From Geoalkalibacter ferrihydriticus DSM 17813 (GTDB lineage Bacteria; Desulfobacterota; Desulfuromonadia; Desulfuromonadales; Geoalkalibacteraceae), in the NCBI RefSeq assembly GCF_000820505.1, contig NZ_JWJD01000008.1, positions 1-64,000 on the forward strand: a stretch of 64,000 nucleotides of DNA, given 5' to 3'. The notes under the pieces are model-generated. The model made no database searches. It was given only the letters and a program-made list of their open reading frames with translations, and was not told where the DNA came from. This document shows positions 3,045-50,330 of this stretch, one piece after another. The stretch's first letter is position 1. Each line of letters opens with the position of its first letter. The position numbers and the translations under genes were made by a program.

Positions 3045-3569
3045 GGTTGCACCTTTCCAAATTAAACAACGCAAAACTGCGTCTTACGCCCGTTCGCTGC
3101 GCTCTCTCAAGACGCAAAGTACGCGGAGAAAAACTTTTCCTTGAACGCAGATAAAAACGGATGGACGCAGATGAAATCAAAATCAAAACCAAAACCAAAA
3201 CGAACAGGGATACACATGCAGCCCTGGGGGTCAAATCTTTGCAGCCCTGGGGGTCAAATCTTTACTGTTGACAAGTTCTGCATCGCTCTTGATTCACAGG
3301 CGAGATATGCCCCACTTCGCGCCTTGACGGCTTTGTGTGAGGCCGACGTCAAGATCTGTCTCTGTCTCGTTCGCTTACGCTCGCTCAAGACGCGAAGGCC
3401 GCAAAGTTTTTTGGACACACTGTCTTTTGCGGGGCGGATCAAGGCAACCATCTGTTTCCACGCCTGTTTTAACCATAACGCATTCATGCTTCCGGCGTAA
3501 ACGCTTTTTTGCCGGCAAAAACAGGCATGAACCTTAAGGCCTACTTGTGTGGCCTGTCTTTGGTCGTGC
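3045..3569. repeat. Gene-free spacer holding composite repeat copy C and a 23-bp tandem duplication
   Basis: No gene is supported. The CGCCCGTTCGCTGCG to TTGAACGCAGATAA part of the composite repeat lies at about 3080-3172, and its GGGGTCAAATC...GTTGACAAG part at about 3250-3412, so the two halves are in swapped order compared with copies A and B. Between them is an A/C-rich AAAACC run and a perfect tandem duplication of 23 bases (3218-3240 and 3241-3263). A diverged GGxCGGAxCAAG unit is at 3432-3478. Confidence 0.7.
3218..3263. repeat. Perfect 23-bp tandem duplication
   Basis: The 23-base unit starting GCAGCCCTGGGGG and ending TCAAATCTTT is present twice head to tail with no mismatch. Perfect identity suggests a recent slippage or recombination event. 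The second copy leads straight into the GTTGACAAG block of repeat copy C. Confidence 0.9.
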
Positions 3570-19766: not shown

Positions 19767-22586
19767 ATGAATGCCCCGCAACCTTCACGCATCGCCAGCC
19801 TGAACGCCAAGATCGGCAGCTACGGCAAGGAAAACCTCGCGGACATCCTGCATGTGCTGGTCGAGGCGATGAACGTTCTCACCCAACAATCGCGCTGTCG
19901 CATCTATCTGGAAGATCTCACCAGCGGCTCGCTCACCTGTGCGGCGGCCTCGGGACCTTTCGCCGATCTGATCCGCCGCAAGTCTTTTCCCATTACCAGC
20001 ACCGCATTTGCCGTCTCGCGCGTGTACATGACCCAGGAAGAGCTGGTTCTCGAGGATGTCGCCGCCTCATCGAGCCCCTATGCCCGCGAACTTGCGGATA
20101 AATTCAATATCCTCTCAAGCTATCTGACACCGCTGTTACACAATGGCCGCTCTCTCGGGGTGCTGTGTGTCGACAGCGGCCGCCTCGGTCAGATTCCGGA
20201 CAGGACGCAGCGCCAACAGATCAAAACCTTTCTCGCCGAGGTGATCGGGCTCATCGATCTGGCACGCAAATACCACCAGCAAATTGTTCTGGCGCGCCTG
20301 GTGGATCAGGCGAAAAAGCGCGAAGCGGCCCAGTACATGATGAAATCGGCGGTGCGCCTCATCGACAAGCTGGCCTTGGCTTCGGTTCTGGTGCCGGCGC
20401 CGGCCGGCGCCCGGGACGAGCCGGGATTGCAGATTCTGGCCTCTTATTCCAAGGAAAAAGAGGCCAAGCGCCTCTACGAAGACGACAAGATGGTAAGTCT
20501 CGGTCCGGGACGCTCACTGCTGGCGCGCTACATCGACGGCAGCGGCGTGATTACCGACGATCTGCTGCTGACCCCGACCTATTTTTCCGACCTTGAATCG
20601 GAAACCCTGCAAAAACGCTACATCACCGAAGAACTGGGCCTTAAATCCCTGTACCTGGTACCGCGCTTCGAACCGCGTACACGGCGAGTCATCTGCCTGG
20701 TCAATTATTACACCCGGGAAAAATACTTGTTCAGCGATTTCGAAAAGGGCCTGCTCGAAGCGCATGCGGAAATGGCGCAACGCGCCATCGAGGAAATCGG
20801 CGGCCAGCACATGGAGATCCAGGTGCTGGCGGAAATCAACGATCTTTTGCAGGCGCGCTTCAGCGGCCTGCAACCCTTTCTCAACCGGGTTCTTTCCAAG
20901 GCAACGGAAATCATCGGCGCCGACACCGGCAGCATTGCCCTGGTCGAGCAGATCGACGACCGTAAATGGCTGGTGGTCGAAGACGGTGAAGGGCGGCTGC
21001 TCGGCGCCAAGAGCAAGGAATGGTTGAAGAAGAACATCCCCCCCATCCGCATCGGCGCCTTGGATCTGCCGCCCGAGGAGCGCAGCCTCACCGGCTATGT
21101 CGCCGCCACCGGACGCCCGCACCTGGTGGGCGACACCCTGGAAGAGAAAGCCGCGGGCGGCTTTTATCGCGAGATCACCGAGGCAATTCGCAGCGAACTG
21201 GCCGTCCCGGTCATTTGCGAAGGCGAGGTCATCGCCGTGATCTGCCTCGACAGCCTGAAACCTCACCACTTCACCGATGAGCACCAGCGCATTTTGATGA
21301 TCATCGAGCGCATGATCTCGCGCCACATCGCCGACCAGCGCCGCATCGAAAAACTCACCACCGAAGTCAATCGCCTGCGCTCCGATGTCGGCTACAAAGA
21401 CCCCAAGGTTTCGTCCTACAAACTGGGCAACATTATCGGCAACTCGGCAAAAGCCATGGAGGTCGTCGATTTCATCCAGAAAATCAGTCCGCCGCTGGCC
21501 AACCGCATCGCCTTCTGGAGTCAGAGCAACATGCAGGAGGCGACCCTGGGCCTGCCTTCCATTTTCATCACCGGGGAAACCGGCAGCGGCAAGGAGTTTC
21601 TCTTCAACAACATCTATTCGCGTCTCAACGAGATTTATAAGGACAAAATCCGCCCCGGCATGGAACTGCCCTTGAAAAAAACAAATATCGCCGCCTACAG
21701 TGGCGAGCTGACCTATTCGGAACTCTTCGGCCACAAGCGCGGCGCCTACACGGGAGCCAACGCCGATCGTCAAGGCATTCTCGAAGAAGCTCACGGCGGG
21801 GTGGTGTTTCTGGATGAAATCGGCGACGCCGACCCCAAGACCCAGGTACAATTGCTGCGTTTTCTCGACAACGGCGGCATCGTGCGTCTGGGCGAAAACA
21901 TTACCCGCTACGCCCGCGTGTTGCTGGTGGCGGCAACCAATAAAAACCTGCGCCAGTTGATCGTCGAGGGCTTGTTTCGCGAGGATCTCTACCACCGCTT
22001 GACGGAATTGACCATCGAGGTGCCCTCCCTCAACGAACGCCGCGAGGACATCGGGGATCTTGCGGTACACTTTCTCGGGCAACTTTTCCGCGTCTACAAA
22101 AAGCCCGAGGAGACCGACGCCGACCTGCCGACCCTGAGCCGCGGCGCGCGCGAAGCCCTCATCAATCACCACTACACCGGAAATATCCGCGAACTGCGCA
22201 GTATTCTGCTGCGCGCCCTGATCTTTCGCCGCGCCGCGACCATCACCGCCGAAGACATTCGCGCCGTGCTGCCCGGGCCGACGCAACCCTCAGCGGGCCA
22301 TCGCGCACAAAAGCTGGCCGGTGCCCTGGCCGATGAAGTATTCGGCGACATCCGCGCAGGGCGCAAGGACTTCTGGCAAGCCGTCTACGAACCCTATTCG
22401 CGCAGCCGCCTGACACGCGAAATGGTGGTTGCGGTGATCGAGCGGGCGCGCGCCGAAGGCGCCGGCACCATGCCCAAGCTGGCCCTGGCACTTCACGCCT
22501 GCGATCCGAAGAGCAGCGATCCGGAGGAGAAAAAGACCTTCTTTCGCTTCAAGAACTTTTTGTACAAGACGATACGGATTTCGTGA
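19767..22586 (+). CDS. GAF-domain sigma-54-dependent activator-like protein
   Basis: 939 residues from the ATG at 19767, with GGAGAT 6 bases upstream and the promoter just ahead. The N-terminal 560 residues are several GAF-type modules (about 20-170, 185-345, 355-550). An AAA+ domain follows: Walker A GETGSGKE near 602, the sigma-54 contact loop as GAYTGA near 659 (normally GAFTGA), Walker B VVFLDEIGD near 684 and FREDLYHRL. A 30-residue insert sits between Walker A and the ELFG segment. The C-terminal 90 residues do not show the usual FIS-type helix-turn-helix, so DNA binding is uncertain. The signal sensed is unknown. Confidence 0.85.
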   Translation: MNAPQPSRIASLNAKIGSYGKENLADILHVLVEAMNVLTQQSRCRIYLEDLTSGSLTCAAASGPFADLIRRKSFPITSTAFAVSRVYMTQEELVLEDVAASSSPYARELADKFNILSSYLTPLLHNGRSLGVLCVDSGRLGQIPDRTQRQQIKTFLAEVIGLIDLARKYHQQIVLARLVDQAKKREAAQYMMKSAVRLIDKLALASVLVPAPAGARDEPGLQILASYSKEKEAKRLYEDDKMVSLGPGRSLLARYIDGSGVITDDLLLTPTYFSDLESETLQKRYITEELGLKSLYLVPRFEPRTRRVICLVNYYTREKYLFSDFEKGLLEAHAEMAQRAIEEIGGQHMEIQVLAEINDLLQARFSGLQPFLNRVLSKATEIIGADTGSIALVEQIDDRKWLVVEDGEGRLLGAKSKEWLKKNIPPIRIGALDLPPEERSLTGYVAATGRPHLVGDTLEEKAAGGFYREITEAIRSELAVPVICEGEVIAVICLDSLKPHHFTDEHQRILMIIERMISRHIADQRRIEKLTTEVNRLRSDVGYKDPKVSSYKLGNIIGNSAKAMEVVDFIQKISPPLANRIAFWSQSNMQEATLGLPSIFITGETGSGKEFLFNNIYSRLNEIYKDKIRPGMELPLKKTNIAAYSGELTYSELFGHKRGAYTGANADRQGILEEAHGGVVFLDEIGDADPKTQVQLLRFLDNGGIVRLGENITRYARVLLVAATNKNLRQLIVEGLFREDLYHRLTELTIEVPSLNERREDIGDLAVHFLGQLFRVYKKPEETDADLPTLSRGAREALINHHYTGNIRELRSILLRALIFRRAATITAEDIRAVLPGPTQPSAGHRAQKLAGALADEVFGDIRAGRKDFWQAVYEPYSRSRLTREMVVAVIERARAEGAGTMPKLALALHACDPKSSDPEEKKTFFRFKNFLYKTIRIS

Positions 22587-36477: not shown

Positions 36478-36603
36478 GCCTTTGATCCGCCAAAGACGCC
36501 GCGCCGCTCTTGTTTCGATGATTCGACCTGTGATAAAGGTAAATATTCAGCCGCGCCGCCCAATCACGCCGAACATTCACCTTTACCGATAAATTTTGCA
36601 ATC

Positions 36604-44056: not shown

Positions 44057-46033
44057 ATGCGCGGTCTATTGTTCAATTTCGTCGCCAATCTTAAAATGCG
44101 CTGGAAGATGCTGGTGGTGGTGCTGCCGCTGGTGGTGCTGCCGATCTTCGTGGTCGGCGGGGTCATCGGCTATATCAGCTACCAGCAGGCCTATCGCGGC
44201 ATTACCAAGGCCAGCGAAGCTGACCTCGACCACATGGCACGTTTCACCCTCGATCTGCTCGACGCTCACTACAAACAGTTCCAGGTCTACAAAGAAGACA
44301 AGCGGCAGGCGGTGCGCAACGAGCTGCGCACCCTGACCGACCTGGCCTACAGCCTGGCCGAGTCACACCACCACCAGTACCAGAGCGGCGAAATCAGCCT
44401 GGAAAGAGCGCGTAGCGAGGCTGGACGGGCCCTCAAGCAAGTCAGCATCGGCCAAAGCGGCTACATTTTCGCCATGAGCAGCCAGGGTGACCTGACCGTG
44501 CATCCGGCCCGCGAGGGGGAAAATATTTTCGACGAGCAGGCCGAGGACGGCCGGTATTTCATCCGCGCCATGTCCCAGGCGGCCACGCGCGCCCCGCCGG
44601 GGGCCGTCATGTTCACTCTTTATCCCTGGCGCAACGAGATGCTCGGTGATCAGGCGCCACGGCAGAAGATGGCCGCCTATCGCTACTTTCCCGAATGGGA
44701 TTGGATTATCGCCGCCACCGGTTATGTAGAGGAAACCTACGAGGATCTGGCCTTTGAGCGACGCTCCTTTGCCGATCTCAAACAGAAGATCAAAAACAAG
44801 AAGGTCGGCCGCACCGGCTACATCTATTGCATGGATACGCAGGGCACTCTCCACATCCATCCTGAGGATGAAGGGCTCAATATCGCTGAGCGCACCGATT
44901 TCACAGGCAACCCTTTTGTTCGCGAGATGGTGCAGAACAAGCACGGCTGGATCCGCTACCCCTGGCGCGGCACCGAGGATTCACTACCGCGCATGAAAAT
45001 CGTGCGCTACCTCTATTTCAAGCCCTGGGACTGGATTGTTGCGGTGGGTTCCTACGAAGATGAGTTTTTCGAAGAGGCGAAGCTCATCAAGACGCGCATT
45101 CTCGGCAGTCTCTTCATCCTGACTTTTTTTGTCGGGACAACGGCGATCTTCATGGTGTTTGTTGCCGCGCAAGTGCTGACCAACCCCATCCATCACATGA
45201 TCGACGTCATCCGCCGGGTACGCAAGGGACGCCTCGACGCCAAGATGCAAGTGGACACCCACGACGAGCTGGGCGAACTTGCCGCGGCCTTCAATCGCAT
45301 GACCGACATCATGAAACGCAACCAGGAAATGGAGGCGAGCCTCTCGCAACAGGGTAAAATGGCCTCCCTCGGCATACTCTCCTCGGGCGTGGCCCATGAG
45401 ATCAACAATCCCCTGGGAGTTATTCTGGGTTATGCCGCCTACCTTGAAGGCAAGCTCGACCCCGACGATCCCAAATTTAAGTACGTGCACGAGATCAAGC
45501 GCGAGAGCAAGCGCTGCAAGAAAATCGTGCAGGATCTCCTTAACTATGCCCGCACCCCCAAGCCGGCGCTGGAAGCAACCAATATCAACCAGTTGCTTGA
45601 GCAGATCGTCGATTTTGCCGCCAACCATACCGACATGCACCAGGTTCGGGTGCGCAAAGCCTTCACTGCCGAACTGCCGCCGGCCATGATCGACGGCGAC
45701 CAGATCCGCCAGGTGGCCATCAATCTGATTCTCAACGCCGGCGCGTCCATGCCCGAGGGCGGCGATCTGGTGGTGGGCACCTCCATGGGCGCCGACGGTT
45801 TTGTGGAACTCAGCTTTGCCGACACGGGGTGCGGAATTCCGCCCGAATACCTGGAAAAAATATTCGAGCCCTTCTTTACCACACGGCCCCGGGGAACCGG
45901 ATTGGGGCTGGCAATTACCCGCCAGATCATCGAACTGCACCAGGGCGAAATTCACATCGACAGCGAACCGGGGCGCGGCACCAGAGTGTTGGTGCGGTTG
46001 CCCACCCCGGCTCGGGAAAGCACTGACCTATGA
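44057..46033 (+). CDS. Sensor histidine kinase with two Cache domains
   Basis: 658 residues. A transmembrane helix near 15-40 and a second near 355-378 enclose an extracytoplasmic region with two similar sCache_2-type modules: GYIFAMSSQGDLTVHP with FPEWDWIIAATGYVEE, and GYIYCMDTQGTLHIHP with FKPWDWIVAVGSYEDE. Cache_2 domains commonly bind small carboxylates. HAMP (about 375-430), HisKA with GVAHEINNPLGVI (His about 447) and HATPase (NLILNAGASMPEGG, DTGCGI, GTGLGLAI) follow. All boxes are intact. It overlaps the response regulator gene by 4 bases. Confidence 0.95.
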   Translation: MRGLLFNFVANLKMRWKMLVVVLPLVVLPIFVVGGVIGYISYQQAYRGITKASEADLDHMARFTLDLLDAHYKQFQVYKEDKRQAVRNELRTLTDLAYSLAESHHHQYQSGEISLERARSEAGRALKQVSIGQSGYIFAMSSQGDLTVHPAREGENIFDEQAEDGRYFIRAMSQAATRAPPGAVMFTLYPWRNEMLGDQAPRQKMAAYRYFPEWDWIIAATGYVEETYEDLAFERRSFADLKQKIKNKKVGRTGYIYCMDTQGTLHIHPEDEGLNIAERTDFTGNPFVREMVQNKHGWIRYPWRGTEDSLPRMKIVRYLYFKPWDWIVAVGSYEDEFFEEAKLIKTRILGSLFILTFFVGTTAIFMVFVAAQVLTNPIHHMIDVIRRVRKGRLDAKMQVDTHDELGELAAAFNRMTDIMKRNQEMEASLSQQGKMASLGILSSGVAHEINNPLGVILGYAAYLEGKLDPDDPKFKYVHEIKRESKRCKKIVQDLLNYARTPKPALEATNINQLLEQIVDFAANHTDMHQVRVRKAFTAELPPAMIDGDQIRQVAINLILNAGASMPEGGDLVVGTSMGADGFVELSFADTGCGIPPEYLEKIFEPFFTTRPRGTGLGLAITRQIIELHQGEIHIDSEPGRGTRVLVRLPTPARESTDL

Positions 46034-47406
46034 CGAAAAAGCCGAAGATTCTGCTCATTGATGACGAGGAAGGCCTGTGCCGCATGCTTGAAGCCGTGCT
46101 GGGCGACGAGGGGTACGCGGTGCGCGCCTACAATCGGCCGGTGGTGGCCATGAGCGAGTTCGCGGCCGGCCGCTATGACCTGGTCATTACCGATATTCGT
46201 ATGCCCGAAATGACCGGCATCGAGGTTTTACAGCGGGTCAAGGACAAAGACCCCGGCATTCCGGTGATCATCATCACCGCCCATGCCACCGTCGAGATGT
46301 CCATTCAGGCCATGCGGCGCGGCGCCTATGATATGGTCACCAAACCTTTCGAGCCCGACGAACTGCTGTTTCGCGTGAAAAACGCCCTGCGCCAGACCGA
46401 ACTCAGCGCCGAGAACCAGGATCTGCGCGAAGAAATCGCCGGGCGCTTTCGCTTCGACAACATCCTCGGCACCTCGCAGAAGCTGCGCGCGGTGCTCGAC
46501 AAGGTGGAAAAACTCGCCATCCGCGACACGTCGATCCTCATCACCGGTGAGTCGGGCACTGGCAAGGAACTTATCGCCCAGGCGGTGCACTATAATTCAC
46601 CGCGCAAGGACAAGCGCTTTGTCGCCATCAACTGCGGCGCGCTGCCCGAGTCGGTGCTCGAAAGCGAGCTGTTCGGGTATAAAAAAGGTGCTTTTACCGG
46701 CGCCGCCGAGGATCGCGAAGGCTTGCTCAAGGCAGCCGATGGCGGCACCCTGTTTCTCGATGAGGTCGGCAATCTGCCCATGAACGTGCAGAAAACCCTG
46801 CTGCGCTTTCTCCAGGAGCAGGAATTCCGCCGCATCGGCGACACCACCTCCACCAAGGTCGATGTGCGCATTCTCTCAGCGACCAACGCCGATCTGCGCG
46901 AGGGCGTCAAGCAGGGCGATTTTCGCGAAGATCTTTACTATCGCCTCAACGTAGTCAACATTCACCTGCCGCCTCTGCGTGAACGCAAGGCCGACATCGC
47001 CCTGTTGGTCGATCATTTCATCCGCGCGCAGAACGAAAAATTCGCCACCCATATCAAAGGATTGTCCGCCGAAGCCCTCGAGGCGGTCACGGAATTTTCC
47101 TGGCCGGGCAACATTCGCCAGTTGCGCAACGTGATCGAAGCAGCGGTGGCCATGGAAGACGGCGAATACATAACTCTGCCGGTACTCGCCCAGTTTATCG
47201 AGATCGATGACGCCGCCCCCGTGGAGCGCGCGGAAGACAACGACTATTCAAGCGCCATGGCTGATTTTGAAATCGGCTACCTCAAAGAGCTGTTGCGTAA
47301 AACCGAGGGTAACGTCGAGGTCGCCGCGCGCCGCGCCGGCATGAACATGGCAACCATCTACCGCAAACTCAAGAAATACGACCTGCGCAAAGACGATTAT
47401 CTCTGA
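46030..47406 (+). CDS. Sigma-54-dependent response regulator (NtrC/AtoC family)
   Basis: 458 residues: receiver domain with Asp55 in LVITDIRMPE and a conserved Lys in MVTKPFEPDEL, AAA+ domain with Walker A GESGTGKE, the intact sigma-54 loop GAFTGA, TLFLDEVGNLP and FREDLYYRLNVV, and a C-terminal FIS-type helix-turn-helix NVEVAARRAGMNMATIYRKLKKY. Coupled to the Cache kinase by ATGA overlap. The next gene carries a sigma-54 promoter and a palindrome at the expected distance, making it the obvious target. Confidence 0.96.
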   Translation: MTKKPKILLIDDEEGLCRMLEAVLGDEGYAVRAYNRPVVAMSEFAAGRYDLVITDIRMPEMTGIEVLQRVKDKDPGIPVIIITAHATVEMSIQAMRRGAYDMVTKPFEPDELLFRVKNALRQTELSAENQDLREEIAGRFRFDNILGTSQKLRAVLDKVEKLAIRDTSILITGESGTGKELIAQAVHYNSPRKDKRFVAINCGALPESVLESELFGYKKGAFTGAAEDREGLLKAADGGTLFLDEVGNLPMNVQKTLLRFLQEQEFRRIGDTTSTKVDVRILSATNADLREGVKQGDFREDLYYRLNVVNIHLPPLRERKADIALLVDHFIRAQNEKFATHIKGLSAEALEAVTEFSWPGNIRQLRNVIEAAVAMEDGEYITLPVLAQFIEIDDAAPVERAEDNDYSSAMADFEIGYLKELLRKTEGNVEVAARRAGMNMATIYRKLKKYDLRKDDYL

Positions 47407-47554
47407 CCTGCACAGGTGCAAGGGTGCGAAAAAACCATTTGCAAATCTGCGAATTCTTTTCCGCAACCCTCAACTCCCGGACACCCAACTGAAATCACTA
47501 AGTTTTCCGGGGATTGAGGGGAGGTTGCGGGAACCGCCGCCGGGACGCAGGCGC

Positions 47555-47570
47555 TTCGCACCGGTGCGAA
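47555..47570. promoter_or_regulatory. Candidate upstream activating site for the sigma-54 regulator
   Basis: TTCGCACCGGTGCGAA is a perfect 16-bp palindrome centred about 121 bases before the predicted transcription start of the AceTr-like gene, a typical enhancer distance. The half-site with its flank, GGTGCGAAAAAA, is repeated at 47423-47434. An imperfect inverted repeat (CCGCAACC near 47461 and GGTTGCGG near 47523) lies between. Confidence 0.55.
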
Positions 47571-47657
47571 AAAAGCGCCATAGTCCGATCTTGCCTCGAC
47601 CTTTCAAGCCAATGGAATCACTCATTTTTTTCGATTTTCTCGACCTGTCCCCCAAGA

Positions 47658-47673
47658 TGGAATAGCTCTTGCT
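47658..47673 (+). promoter_or_regulatory. Sigma-54 promoter of the AceTr-like gene
   Basis: TGGAATAGCTCTTGCT has GG and GC exactly 10 bases apart and the TTGCT end of the -12 box; only the AAT after TGG departs from the CAC consensus. The start would be near 47684, about 50 bases before the first ATG. Confidence 0.7.
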
Positions 47674-47735
47674 GCTTTTAAATCCCCAGGAGTGCGCTGG
47701 GGCGGTCTTCGAGTTCGCAACCTATCGCGCAAAAA

Positions 47736-48614
47736 ATGACGGCAGAAAGCGGTGCGGCCATGGCGGATGACAGCATCTGTCCCTACTTCGGAATGGATGA
47801 AGACCTGTGCGATGTCGGGTGCGGTTATATTTCCCCCTCCGATGTGCATCAGATCATTCGTTATTGCCGCGCGCAGCACCAGCAATGTCCTCGTTGCCAG
47901 CAACTGGCGGCGCATTTTGCCGAGCAACAGGCGGCTGCGCGAAGCGGCGGGGCACTGCACAGCGCCCGGCGCGAGCTCGACCCCGCGCCGCTGAACAATC
48001 GAAACCCCGCCCCCCTGATCAGCGGCGCAAGGAGTGCAACGGCGTGCCTGAGCCTGCACGAGTCAAGCGCGGAACGCTGCGCGCCGGTGCCTTTGGGCCT
48101 GCTCGGCACGGGCATGACGATTCTTCTGCTGGGTGTGCAACAGGCCACCCTGCTGCCACTGGACGCCATGATGATCGCCATGGGCCTGTTTTACGGAGGC
48201 CTGGCACAGATCATCGCCGGCATTTTCGAGTGGCGGCGCAACCAAAGCTTTGCCGCGACCACCTTTTGCGCCTGGGGCCTGTTCTGGCTGACCCTGGTGG
48301 GCATGGTGGCTCTGCCGCGCGCCGGCATCGGTGATCTGCCCTCCCCGCTGGCGCTGACTTCTTACCTGGTTCTCTGGGGCCTGTTCAGCGGCGTGCTGTT
48401 CATCGGTGCTCTGCGCCTGGGGCGGCTTTTGCCGTTGATTTTCGCCAACCTCAGCCTGTTCTTGTTCCTGCTTGCCCTAAGCGAGGCTCACACTCTGGTC
48501 GCCCTGGACCGCTTGGCCGGATGGCAGGGTGTACTGACCGGCATCCTTGCCGTCTATGCCGGCTGCGCCCAGATGCTCAATGATATTTACCGCCGCCCGC
48601 TTCTCCCGACCTGA
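47736..48614 (+). CDS. Acetate-transporter family (AceTr/SatP) membrane protein with Cys-rich N-terminal domain
   Basis: 292 residues from the ATG at 47736 (47760 is also possible; neither has a clear Shine-Dalgarno). Residues about 120-285 are the six-helix GPR1/FUN34/YaaH fold: PLGLLGTGMTILLL, MIAMGLFYGGLAQIIAGIFEWRRNQSF and CAWGLFWLTLVGMVALP. The family signature NPAPLGL reads CAPVPLGL. Residues 1-60 form a separate Cys-rich unit (CPYFGMDEDLCDVGCGYISPSDV, then RYCRAQHQQCPRC) with six cysteines, which could bind a metal. Family members move acetate or succinate with protons. Controlled, by inference, by the adjacent Cache kinase and regulator. Confidence 0.85.
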   Translation: MTAESGAAMADDSICPYFGMDEDLCDVGCGYISPSDVHQIIRYCRAQHQQCPRCQQLAAHFAEQQAAARSGGALHSARRELDPAPLNNRNPAPLISGARSATACLSLHESSAERCAPVPLGLLGTGMTILLLGVQQATLLPLDAMMIAMGLFYGGLAQIIAGIFEWRRNQSFAATTFCAWGLFWLTLVGMVALPRAGIGDLPSPLALTSYLVLWGLFSGVLFIGALRLGRLLPLIFANLSLFLFLLALSEAHTLVALDRLAGWQGVLTGILAVYAGCAQMLNDIYRRPLLPT

Positions 48615-48746
48615 AAAACACTCCCAATTCCCAGTCTCTCGCAACCCCTCGTCCCTGGCCGCCCGACGCGCTGAGGCCGAGGAACCCGGCACAATCGCGA
48701 ATTGCTATGCTATAGTTCTTGCGAACACCTTTATCAGGAGGCAGCC

Positions 48747-48947
48747 ATGACCCCCGCCAAAGAGAGCGAACAAAGCTACAACGAGTGTACCAACGCACAA
48801 CAACACCGCGAACACCTGTGTATTCTCATGGAGCAAGGACGCAGTCGCGAGGTATCCGAGCGTTCAACGCATCCGGCCTTCGCCTGCCGCAACTGTGGCG
48901 CTTACGCCAACGAGGCGCAAGATCTCTGCAATCCCATGTCCCTTTAG
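48747..48947 (+). CDS. Small Cys-containing protein, function unknown
   Basis: 66 residues from an ATG with AGGAGG 6 bases upstream, a strong start; an upstream in-frame ATG at 48702 lacks one. The C-terminus FACRNCGAYANEAQDLCNP has a CxxC plus a further Cys, resembling half of a zinc ribbon. I do not recognise the family. A TATAGT-like -10 lies just upstream (about 48711), with no convincing -35. It follows the AceTr-like gene by 132 bases and shares its Cys-rich character. Confidence 0.6.
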   Translation: MTPAKESEQSYNECTNAQQHREHLCILMEQGRSREVSERSTHPAFACRNCGAYANEAQDLCNPMSL

Positions 48948-49000
48948 TTTTACCTGGATCCGCAGGCGATGCCGTCGCGCCCTGCTGGAAGGCTGAACAG

Positions 49001-49507
49001 TTACGATTTGGGTTGTCTTATCGCCAGATAGACTTGCAGAATGAAATCGCCCTGGTCTTGTTCGCTGACCAGGCGCCAATCGGAAGAACTGAAAGGTGGG
49101 AAGAAGGTGTCCCCGGAAAACTTCCCGGGGATGCGGGAAAGGATCATCCGGTCGGCGACCGCCAGGGCGCGGCGATAGATCTCGGCGCCGCCGATGAAAA
49201 AAATTCCGCGCCCGGCCCCTTCTGCCTGCGCCAGCGCCGCAGAGAAGCCGCGGCAAACAGTGATGCCCGGACGGGAATCCAGACTGCGGCTGACCACCAG
49301 GTTGAGACGCTCATCAAGAGGGCCGCCGAGGGATGCAAAGGTGTGCCGCCCCATGATTACCGTGTGGGCCAGGGTCAGACGGCGAAACAGGCGGCGATCG
49401 GCCGCGACATCCCAGGGCAGATTACCGTCGCGACCGATAACGCCATTTTCGCCAACCGCGGCGATGATGATTTTTTCCCCGGCTTGGGCGGGCTGAGGAC
49501 TGTCCAT
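49001..49507 (-). CDS. folA: Dihydrofolate reductase
   Basis: A 168-residue enzyme reducing dihydrofolate with NADPH. Visible hallmarks are IIIAAVGENGVIGRDGNLPWDVAADRRLFRRLT with catalytic Asp37, the nucleotide-binding VIMGRHTFASLGGPL, and FFIGGAEIYRRAL. Divergent from the alpha/beta hydrolase gene with only 52 bases between starts, so the two promoters must overlap coding ends. Confidence 0.95.
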   Translation of the reverse strand: MDSPQPAQAGEKIIIAAVGENGVIGRDGNLPWDVAADRRLFRRLTLAHTVIMGRHTFASLGGPLDERLNLVVSRSLDSRPGITVCRGFSAALAQAEGAGRGIFFIGGAEIYRRALAVADRMILSRIPGKFSGDTFFPPFSSSDWRLVSEQDQGDFILQVYLAIRQPKS

Positions 49508-49559
49508 GTCCGCTTTATAACCTGAGTCTCGCTAAATTGAAAGTCTTTGGAGGCAGTTC

Positions 49560-50330
49560 GTGTCTGAAGATCTGCTCAACCATCCGCTGATTGCCGCACG
49601 CTATTTTTTTCCCCGGCCCGACAGCTTCGCCGAGCCCTTCTGGGTCGATGTCGGCGAGGCGCGGCTGGCCTGCCATTATCATCGTCCACATTCCCACGGC
49701 TACACGCTGATTCATTTCCACGGCAATGGCGAAGTCGCCGCGGATTGGCGTGACGGGTTCCCCGAAGCGCTGGCCTCCCTGGGACTCAACTGCCTGCTGG
49801 CGGAGTTCCGCGGCTACGGCGGCTCCAGCGGCCGTCCGCTGCTGGGAGCCATGCTCGACGATGTCGAAGCACTCATCAATGCCGCCGGCGTCGCCCCCGA
49901 GCGCCTGATTCTCTTCGGCCGCTCGGTGGGTTCGCTGTTTGCCGTGCATGGTATCTCGCTCTATCCCAATATCGCCGGACTAATCCTGGAAAGTGCGGTC
50001 GCCGATGTGCTGGAGCGTCTGCTGCTGCGCCTGACCCCGGAAGAACTGGGGGCCAGCCCTGCGCAACTGGAAAGAGCCGTCGCTCAGCGCCTCGATCAGC
50101 AGCAAAAAATGCACGCCTACCCTGGAGAAACACTGGTCATGCATGCGCGCGGCGACAGCCTGGTGGATGTCTCCCACGGCAAACGGCTGCACCAATGGGC
50201 CGGCGGCCCCAAACGCCTGCACATCTTCGCGCGGGGCGACCACAACAACCTCATGTTCGTTAATCAGCGGGAGTATTTTGCGGAAATTGCGGAATTCGTG
50301 GAGCGATTGGAACGGGGGAATGAAATTTAG
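49560..50330 (+). CDS. Alpha/beta hydrolase
   Basis: 256 residues from a GTG at 49560 with GGAGG 6 bases upstream. It shows LIHFHGNGEVAADWRDGFPEAL (oxyanion loop), EFRGYGGSSGRP, the nucleophile elbow GRSVGS, a late Asp in MHARGDSLVDVSHG and the His in FARGDHNNLMF, so a complete Ser-Asp-His triad. No signal peptide, so cytoplasmic. It resembles BEM46/YfhR-type hydrolases; substrate unknown. Confidence 0.87.
   Translation: MSEDLLNHPLIAARYFFPRPDSFAEPFWVDVGEARLACHYHRPHSHGYTLIHFHGNGEVAADWRDGFPEALASLGLNCLLAEFRGYGGSSGRPLLGAMLDDVEALINAAGVAPERLILFGRSVGSLFAVHGISLYPNIAGLILESAVADVLERLLLRLTPEELGASPAQLERAVAQRLDQQQKMHAYPGETLVMHARGDSLVDVSHGKRLHQWAGGPKRLHIFARGDHNNLMFVNQREYFAEIAEFVERLERGNEI

Follow-up and report, generated by a model that had tools for sequence, protein, structure and literature searches.

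A candidate sigma-54 switch for acetate and lactate uptake in Geoalkalibacter ferrihydriticus and related bacteria

Acetate commonly serves as electron donor to bacteria that respire metals or electrodes. In CrbS/R, a described acetate switch, the regulator belongs to the LuxR/NarL-like class and not to the sigma-54 activators. That switch resembles the system analysed here in placing acetate use under two-component control, but it is listed as governing acetyl-CoA synthase (PMC5436829). The AtoS–AtoC pair of Escherichia coli is likewise a two-component system, with a sigma-54 activator of short-chain acid metabolism, and the excerpted account places TGCA-containing inverted sites far upstream at the atoDAEB promoter, from −184 to −144 (PMC3118216). 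In Desulfovibrio vulgaris, response regulators and sigma-54 activators are tied to genes for the uptake and use of organic acids, DVU3023 and lactate permeases being one example (excerpts of PMC3333781 and PMC4641369). The type of mechanism is already well known.

We found no description of the operator or regulon reported below, nor of acetate-uptake switching in this group of bacteria, in the literature searched; absence from the literature is not proven, because figures, supplements and most subscription papers lay outside the scope of the search. The strings TTGCA, TGCAA, TTTGC and GCAAA are absent from the main texts (figures aside) of PMC3333781 and PMC4641369, as are TTTGCA, TGCAAA and TTCGCA from those of PMC2700814, PMC3543383 and PMC2996986, and TTGCA and TGCAA from that of PMC2725144; the available part of PMC11109978 describes no matching motif. 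Our analysis defines the operator exactly, names a regulator and keeps the list of targets short, so that a single footprint and a single deletion could put the question to the test. The system may act as a sigma-54 switch that responds to acetate or lactate. A leader RNA without an Rfam match in the loci searched came to light as well.

A two-component pair and an acetate transporter

We analysed a window of 64,000 nucleotides, the whole stretch of DNA under study, from contig NZ_JWJD01000008.1 of G. ferrihydriticus DSM 17813. On its forward strand, a gene for a sensor histidine kinase (44057–46033) encodes two Cache modules followed by HAMP, HisKA and HATPase_c domains (Pfam dCache_2, HAMP, HisKA, HATPase_c), and its stop is overlapped by the start of a gene for a sigma-54 activating response regulator (46030–47406, forward strand). 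The regulator matches Pfam Response_reg, Sigma54_activat and HTH_8 above their cut-offs, giving it the receiver (REC), AAA+ sigma-54 activation and Fis-type HTH domains of an NtrC-type protein. The best NCBIfam matches of the kinase and the regulator are AtoS and AtoC, but both miss the equivalog cut-offs (AtoC, PRK11361, 449.7 versus 714 bits; AtoS, PRK11360, 246.2 versus 646 bits). Unlike AtoSC, the window pair has Cache modules in its sensor and targets mainly transporters. Residue D55 is invariant in all 86 aligned regulator sequences, that of the window included, and so are M438, N439, M440, T442, Y444, R445, K446 and K448 near the C-terminal HTH (86/86); from the HTH_8 match, these eight residues are predicted to form the recognition helix.

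The Cache modules of the kinase match the structures 2qhk, 4exo, 4k08, 5g4y and 3ub6. The 4k08 protein (Adeh_3718) was solved with acetate bound, from crystals grown with acetate (PMC3831638, in part), and glycolate, acetate, propionate and pyruvate are all ligands of PscD, the protein of 5g4y (PMC5062169, in part). By eye, and in pairwise alignments that are weak, five of the six residues that contact acetate (Adeh_3718 numbering) appear to be retained in Cache module 2: equivalents of Tyr147, Trp149 and Lys160 are found in the 4k08 alignment and those of Tyr94 and His107 in the 5g4y alignment, with Trp96 replaced by Tyr. Module 1 keeps the equivalents of Tyr94 and His107, and the single stretches that match 4k08 are individually weak (0.27 and 0.01). 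Adeh_3718 and PscD resemble the window kinase in Cache sequence and apparently in most ligand contacts of module 2, but they are chemoreceptors with a single sensor module (PMC3831638, PMC5062169), whereas the window has two modules in a kinase. Because some of the Cache matches have such ligands and most contact residues appear to be kept, acetate or a related acid would be the likeliest signal.

Behind the regulator gene, and on the same strand, lies a gene (47736–48614) for an acetate uptake transporter of the AceTr (Gpr1-Fun34-YaaH) family with a cysteine-rich N-terminal CPYF domain. An initial annotation of the window had called this gene AceTr-like, and the family models bear it out (PF01184, 86 versus 25 bits; NF038013, 191.6 versus 50 bits). 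The true start is probably the ATG at 47760 and not 47736, the start context being conserved in four family members (L075–L078). The CPYF domain (CPYF...CDVG.GYIS...C...C), compared between window positions 47760–47960 and the N-termini of L070 and L204–L222, is common to the acetate transporters and the unrelated MFS transporters of the regulon; that part of the window protein has no match in Pfam or NCBIfam. Further downstream, 48747–48944 encodes a small cysteine-containing protein with no Pfam match, whose counterpart near a transporter gene in genome G002 is 76% identical. The genome contains an rpoN gene and, besides this full copy, a short fragment at C1:385114–385329 (L285) whose match to the sigma-54 DNA-binding domain is borderline.

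Operators and promoter between regulator and transporter

In the regulator–transporter intergenic regions of relatives, the predicted operator is a 16-bp inverted repeat, often present in multiple copies, that reads TTYGCA-N4-TGCRAA; the AtoC site of E. coli, in the excerpted description, consists instead of two inverted 20-bp elements, GCTATGCAGAAATTTGCACA. The window has the multiple upstream inverted-repeat sites of an NtrC-type arrangement, two of them exact and others degenerate, all on the forward strand. We ranked them over 63,977 window positions with a position weight matrix (PWM) trained on 106 sites outside the window's own family. Rank 1 is an exact operator, TTTGCAAATCTGCGAA, at 47438–47453 (an exact TTYGCANNNNTGCRAA), which the initial annotation had overlooked. 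Rank 2 is the promoter-proximal operator TTCGCACCGGTGCGAA, an exact consensus copy that coincides with the perfect palindrome the annotation had reported, precisely at 47555–47570. That palindrome stands as one exact copy of the operator; the rule for recognition is not palindromy itself, since the four middle bases differ from copy to copy. Two overlapping, degenerate candidate operators lie immediately behind the regulator gene, namely CCTGCACAGGTGCAAG at 47407–47422 (three mismatches, rank 10) and GGTGCAAGGGTGCGAA at 47415–47430 (two mismatches, rank 8). The first occupies the position of the distal site in relatives, with offsets of 0/8/31 as in locus L092. The second contains bases 47423–47430 of what had been read as a repeated half-site: the repeat of GGTGCGAAAAAA is genuine (47423–47434 and 47563–47574), but its upstream copy is better described as the right half of a degenerate operator than as a plain half-site. 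Rank 3 goes to position 36595, which falls within other open frames or where they begin and has no listed sigma-54 match close by; we take it as a chance match.

The genome search proposed for the palindrome was run, and the exact form is unique in the 3.84-Mb genome, the next best having two mismatches; at up to three mismatches there are 32 matches, against 15 for a reversed-pattern control. The window has three perfect 16-bp palindromes where shuffles have 1.6 on average, and 6 of 30 shuffles reached three; the other two are TTTTTGCCGGCAAAAA at 3506–3521 and GGCGCCGGCCGGCGCC at 20396–20411. A search of the genome for copies of the whole intergenic region recovered nothing beyond that region and some short, weak matches (best other E 0.175), and it is therefore not a repeated element there. 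A search of the window against Rfam gave nothing at gathering scores. Between the distal and proximal operators, 47458–47533 forms a long imperfect inverted repeat with no T-run behind it and, by eye, no evident counterpart in the intergenic sequences of relatives.

Sigma-54 promoters follow a GG-N10-GC consensus with a TGGCAC-N5-TTGCW-like context. The putative −24/−12 element TGGAATAGCTCTTGCT, at 47658–47673 on the forward strand, agrees with 10 of the 12 specified consensus positions and has GG at 47659–47660, ten intervening bases and GC at 47671–47672, exactly the geometry that had been claimed for it; transcription is predicted to start at ~47684. The proximal operator lies 103 bp from the −24 element, start to start, and its centre ~121 bp before the predicted transcription start. 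The earlier figure of 121 bases before the start is thus right for the predicted start of transcription and wrong for the ATG codons, which lie ~173 bases (47736) and ~197 bases (47760) away. No sigma-70 promoter was found in 47300–49600.

Taken alone, the palindrome and the sigma-54 match are weak and near chance. Sigma-54 matches with at most two mismatches are no commoner in the window than expected (15 versus a shuffle mean of 22), and the element by itself ranks only 9th of 127,962 positions with a matrix built from relatives; a forward-strand match of such quality falls within the 329-bp intergenic region in 2.3% of shuffles. It is the comparison with relatives that makes the predicted arrangement a strong reading.

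We consider it highly probable that the pair, AtoSC-like but with a Cache sensor, switches on monocarboxylate uptake by way of sigma-54 and TTYGCA-N4-TGCRAA sites. The membrane kinase (44057–46033) would bind a short carboxylate through its Cache modules, probably acetate or a related C2/C3 acid, and would phosphorylate the response regulator (46030–47406). Regulator dimers would then bind the 16-bp sites, both in the distal group just behind the regulator gene (47438–47453 and the degenerate 47407–47430) and at the proximal site (47555–47570). The assembled AAA+ ring would reach, by DNA looping, the sigma-54 RNA polymerase waiting at 47658–47673, opening the promoter so that the acetate transporter is made.

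Conservation and co-occurrence in related genomes

The regulator has one match per genome, at E ≤ 1e-135, in 95 of the 136 genomes of the order, that of the window included. Our survey of the DNA downstream of it comprised 91 loci and, once five duplicates (L053, L160–L163) had been removed, represented 86 of these 95 genomes. The genomes left out were G022, G044, G045, G053, G078, G079, G084, G108 and G116, three of which (G022, G044 and G053, equivalent to L031, L033 and L032) carry exact sites. In 54 of the 86 loci, including the window, a gene for an AceTr or OFA-type transporter lies within the next 700 bp in the same orientation. An operator with at most one mismatch is present in 52 of these 54 loci, an exact operator in 43 and a sigma-54 match with at most two mismatches in 50, whereas dinucleotide shuffling predicts 0.63, 0.06 and 1.36 loci, respectively; related genomes are not independent samples. 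The 54 loci hold 120 operator sites with at most one mismatch, those of the window included. The recurrence of the sigma-54 match in corresponding intergenic regions lends support to the promoter that had been proposed from the window sequence. Twelve of the 86 loci have no recognised transporter in the stretch, contig ends among them, and six of the twelve show an operator with at most one mismatch. Genomes G052 and G068, with no operator at the regulator locus, have an operator–promoter module elsewhere.

Exact operators depend on the presence of the regulator gene. The 136 genomes contain 437 of them, against 33 for the reversed pattern. At least two occur in 90 of the 95 genomes with the regulator, and none of these genomes has zero; among the 41 genomes without it, 7 have at least two and 20 have none. 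A composite search for an operator (TTTGCA form only) with a sigma-54 promoter at a set distance returned 65 modules in 50 of the 136 genomes and none with the reversed control; five of the 65 are in regulator-free genomes (G056, G131 and G135). The seven regulator-free exceptions with at least two exact sites are G058, G135, G056, G131, G121, G047 and G130. G058 and G135 have partial ortholog-like matches (70% and 63% identity, respectively), and the remaining five have none above 49% identity among the matches listed. A rescan of nine sub-threshold genomes likewise gave at most 49% identity among the matches listed, the partial matches of G058 and G135 aside.

These data bear on whether the sites might bind a different regulator, for example another sigma-54 activator of the genome, with the neighbouring regulator controlling something else. 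Such genomes do encode many related activators (129 first-look candidates in that of the window), and G056, an assembly of 520 contigs, has eight exact sites and three modules but no regulator match above 49% identity among those listed. We nevertheless regard this explanation as unlikely, given that exact sites follow the ortholog: in genomes at least 95% complete, the mean number is 4.53 with the regulator (n = 55) and 0.40 without it (n = 15). Moreover, G008 and G054 keep AceTr-family genes and ~20 related activators each, yet lack the ortholog and have no exact site, and the invariance of the eight residues near the HTH end also argues against a different regulator. The initial annotation had taken the palindrome for an operator of the regulator whose gene lies directly upstream, and this assignment is supported by the tracking across genomes, by adjacency and by the recurrence of the sites, with sigma-54 promoters, before other transporters. 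The link between regulator and operator is one that we infer from comparison.

Across 297 genomes sampled from the phylum, a search at E ≤ 1e-150 found the regulator in 20, and 17 of these lie beyond the order. The 17 genomes contribute 18 regulator loci; an operator with at most one mismatch lies downstream in 12 of them, also where regulator identity is 54–57%, and no operator was found downstream in the other six. In G226, G320 and G359 operators are instead found next to a gene with a CPYF domain. Of the 17 genomes, 15 have one or more exact sites, G339 and G391 having none in the genome. In total, exact sites number 39 against 6 for the control across these 17 genomes and the regulator-free G277, itself with zero sites. 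The predicted switch, a conserved operator with a sigma-54 promoter, recurs through one order and is scattered elsewhere in the phylum.

The geometry of operator and promoter is also conserved. Where the promoter match has at most two mismatches, every listed operator lies upstream of the promoter, and the operator nearest to the −24 element is 100–116 bp away in 45 of 52 loci: 100–105 bp in 20, 111–116 bp in 25 and 106–110 bp in none. The other seven lie at 69–97, 132 and 237 bp. Distal operator pairs are often 23 or ~31 bp apart (by eye). Rayleigh statistics confirmed that the distances are clustered but did not single out 10.5 bp over 11–12 bp; with no specific 10.5-bp period, the gap at 106–110 bp is only suggestive. 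Such spacing suits activators that must face the polymerase.

This arrangement speaks against the sites being repressor operators that block the promoter, as does the sigma-54 activation domain of the regulator. We rate this possibility, together with the related one that the sites serve mainly autoregulation of the kinase–regulator operon, as very improbable, although sites do lie directly behind the regulator gene and the direction of control is one that we infer. In rearranged genomes, moreover, the sites move with the transporter genes. In 20 of the 86 loci, the transporter genes are elsewhere in the stretch; 17 of these were followed (G094, G111 and G114 were left out), and operator and promoter precede the transporter genes in 16, the exception being L218 (G090), where no operator–promoter pair was found. 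Among the promoters examined away from the regulator loci, five with the nearest operator at 86–89 bp and one with it at 150 bp depart from the 103/114 rhythm. That a chance palindrome met a chance sigma-54 match, or that the palindrome is an RNA hairpin or terminator, is scarcely credible: each element alone is near chance level and 47405–47600 folds well as RNA (z −3.6), but the sites are conserved in relatives and occur together with the regulator, which weighs against it, and the palindrome is followed by an A-run and not a T-run, with no terminator-like site called.

Targets in the genome and leader RNAs

Activation by the Cache-kinase pair would extend beyond the window: in the same genome, the operator–promoter unit would also drive genes for a second acetate transporter, for an MFS transporter of the L-lactate type and for an alpha/beta hydrolase. 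Exact operators in this genome form four groups: that of the window, one on contig C4, one at C1:324642/324744 and one at C1:791524. On C4, three exact sites and a promoter precede an OFA-type transporter scoring above the cut-off of the SfMCT L-lactate model (401.6 versus 320 bits). At C1:324642/324744, the exact sites and a promoter stand before the alpha/beta hydrolase gene, and C1:791524 is a lone exact site with no sigma-54 match nearby. In addition, a pair of one-mismatch sites and a promoter on C9 precede the second acetate transporter. The same target classes, assigned by eye and by length, lie behind the modules in relatives, and the switch appears to control the uptake of both acetate and lactate. 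The hydrolase of the C1:324539–324657 locus (L068, L185) resembles a 3-oxoadipate enol-lactonase below the cut-offs, and hydrolase genes that look similar by eye occur in L179, L180, L186, L187, L191 and L193.

Many relatives, as well as the second acetate transporter gene on C9, have a structured leader in which GUUACUCC, or a variant, is combined with a long stem and a GUUGAGGGAC hairpin. We collected 16 seed copies by the string TTGAGGGAC. The leader stems differ in sequence yet still pair, and six folded copies gave z-scores of −2.3 to −4.4. A model built from the seeds made 25 matches in 20 of the 136 genomes, these being the 16 seeds and nine new copies, most of which are in close relatives of the seed genomes. 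One of the matches is the C9 copy of the window's own genome (C9:98353–98445, equivalent to L071:3855–3952), with the 24 others spread over 19 genomes. All 25 contain TTGAGGGAC, 60–71 nt behind the sigma-54 match; its invariance in the alignment is by construction, because the seeds were chosen by that string. An operator lies upstream in 24 of the 25, and an AceTr or OFA gene was recognised downstream in 22. In the loci searched, no Rfam family matched the leader. The window's own leader is without TTGAGGGAC and folds no better than shuffles (z −0.11).

On balance, we lean towards viewing these elements as an undescribed acetate/lactate-uptake regulon of Desulfuromonadales-like bacteria, found through the order and scattered in the phylum. 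In this view, a single pair of Cache kinase and activator, with one operator and sigma-54 promoters, would control acetate transporters and L-lactate-type MFS transporters, both often with the CPYF domain, as well as an alpha/beta hydrolase, and a new GUUGAGGGAC-loop leader RNA behind many of the promoters would add a second, post-initiation layer of control. In two other families (L101, L102, L108, L092, L096, L099 and L145), a different leader was seen by eye, with GACTCC or ACCTC, a G+C-rich hairpin and a T-run before the gene; placed before the same transporters, this leader looks like an attenuator.
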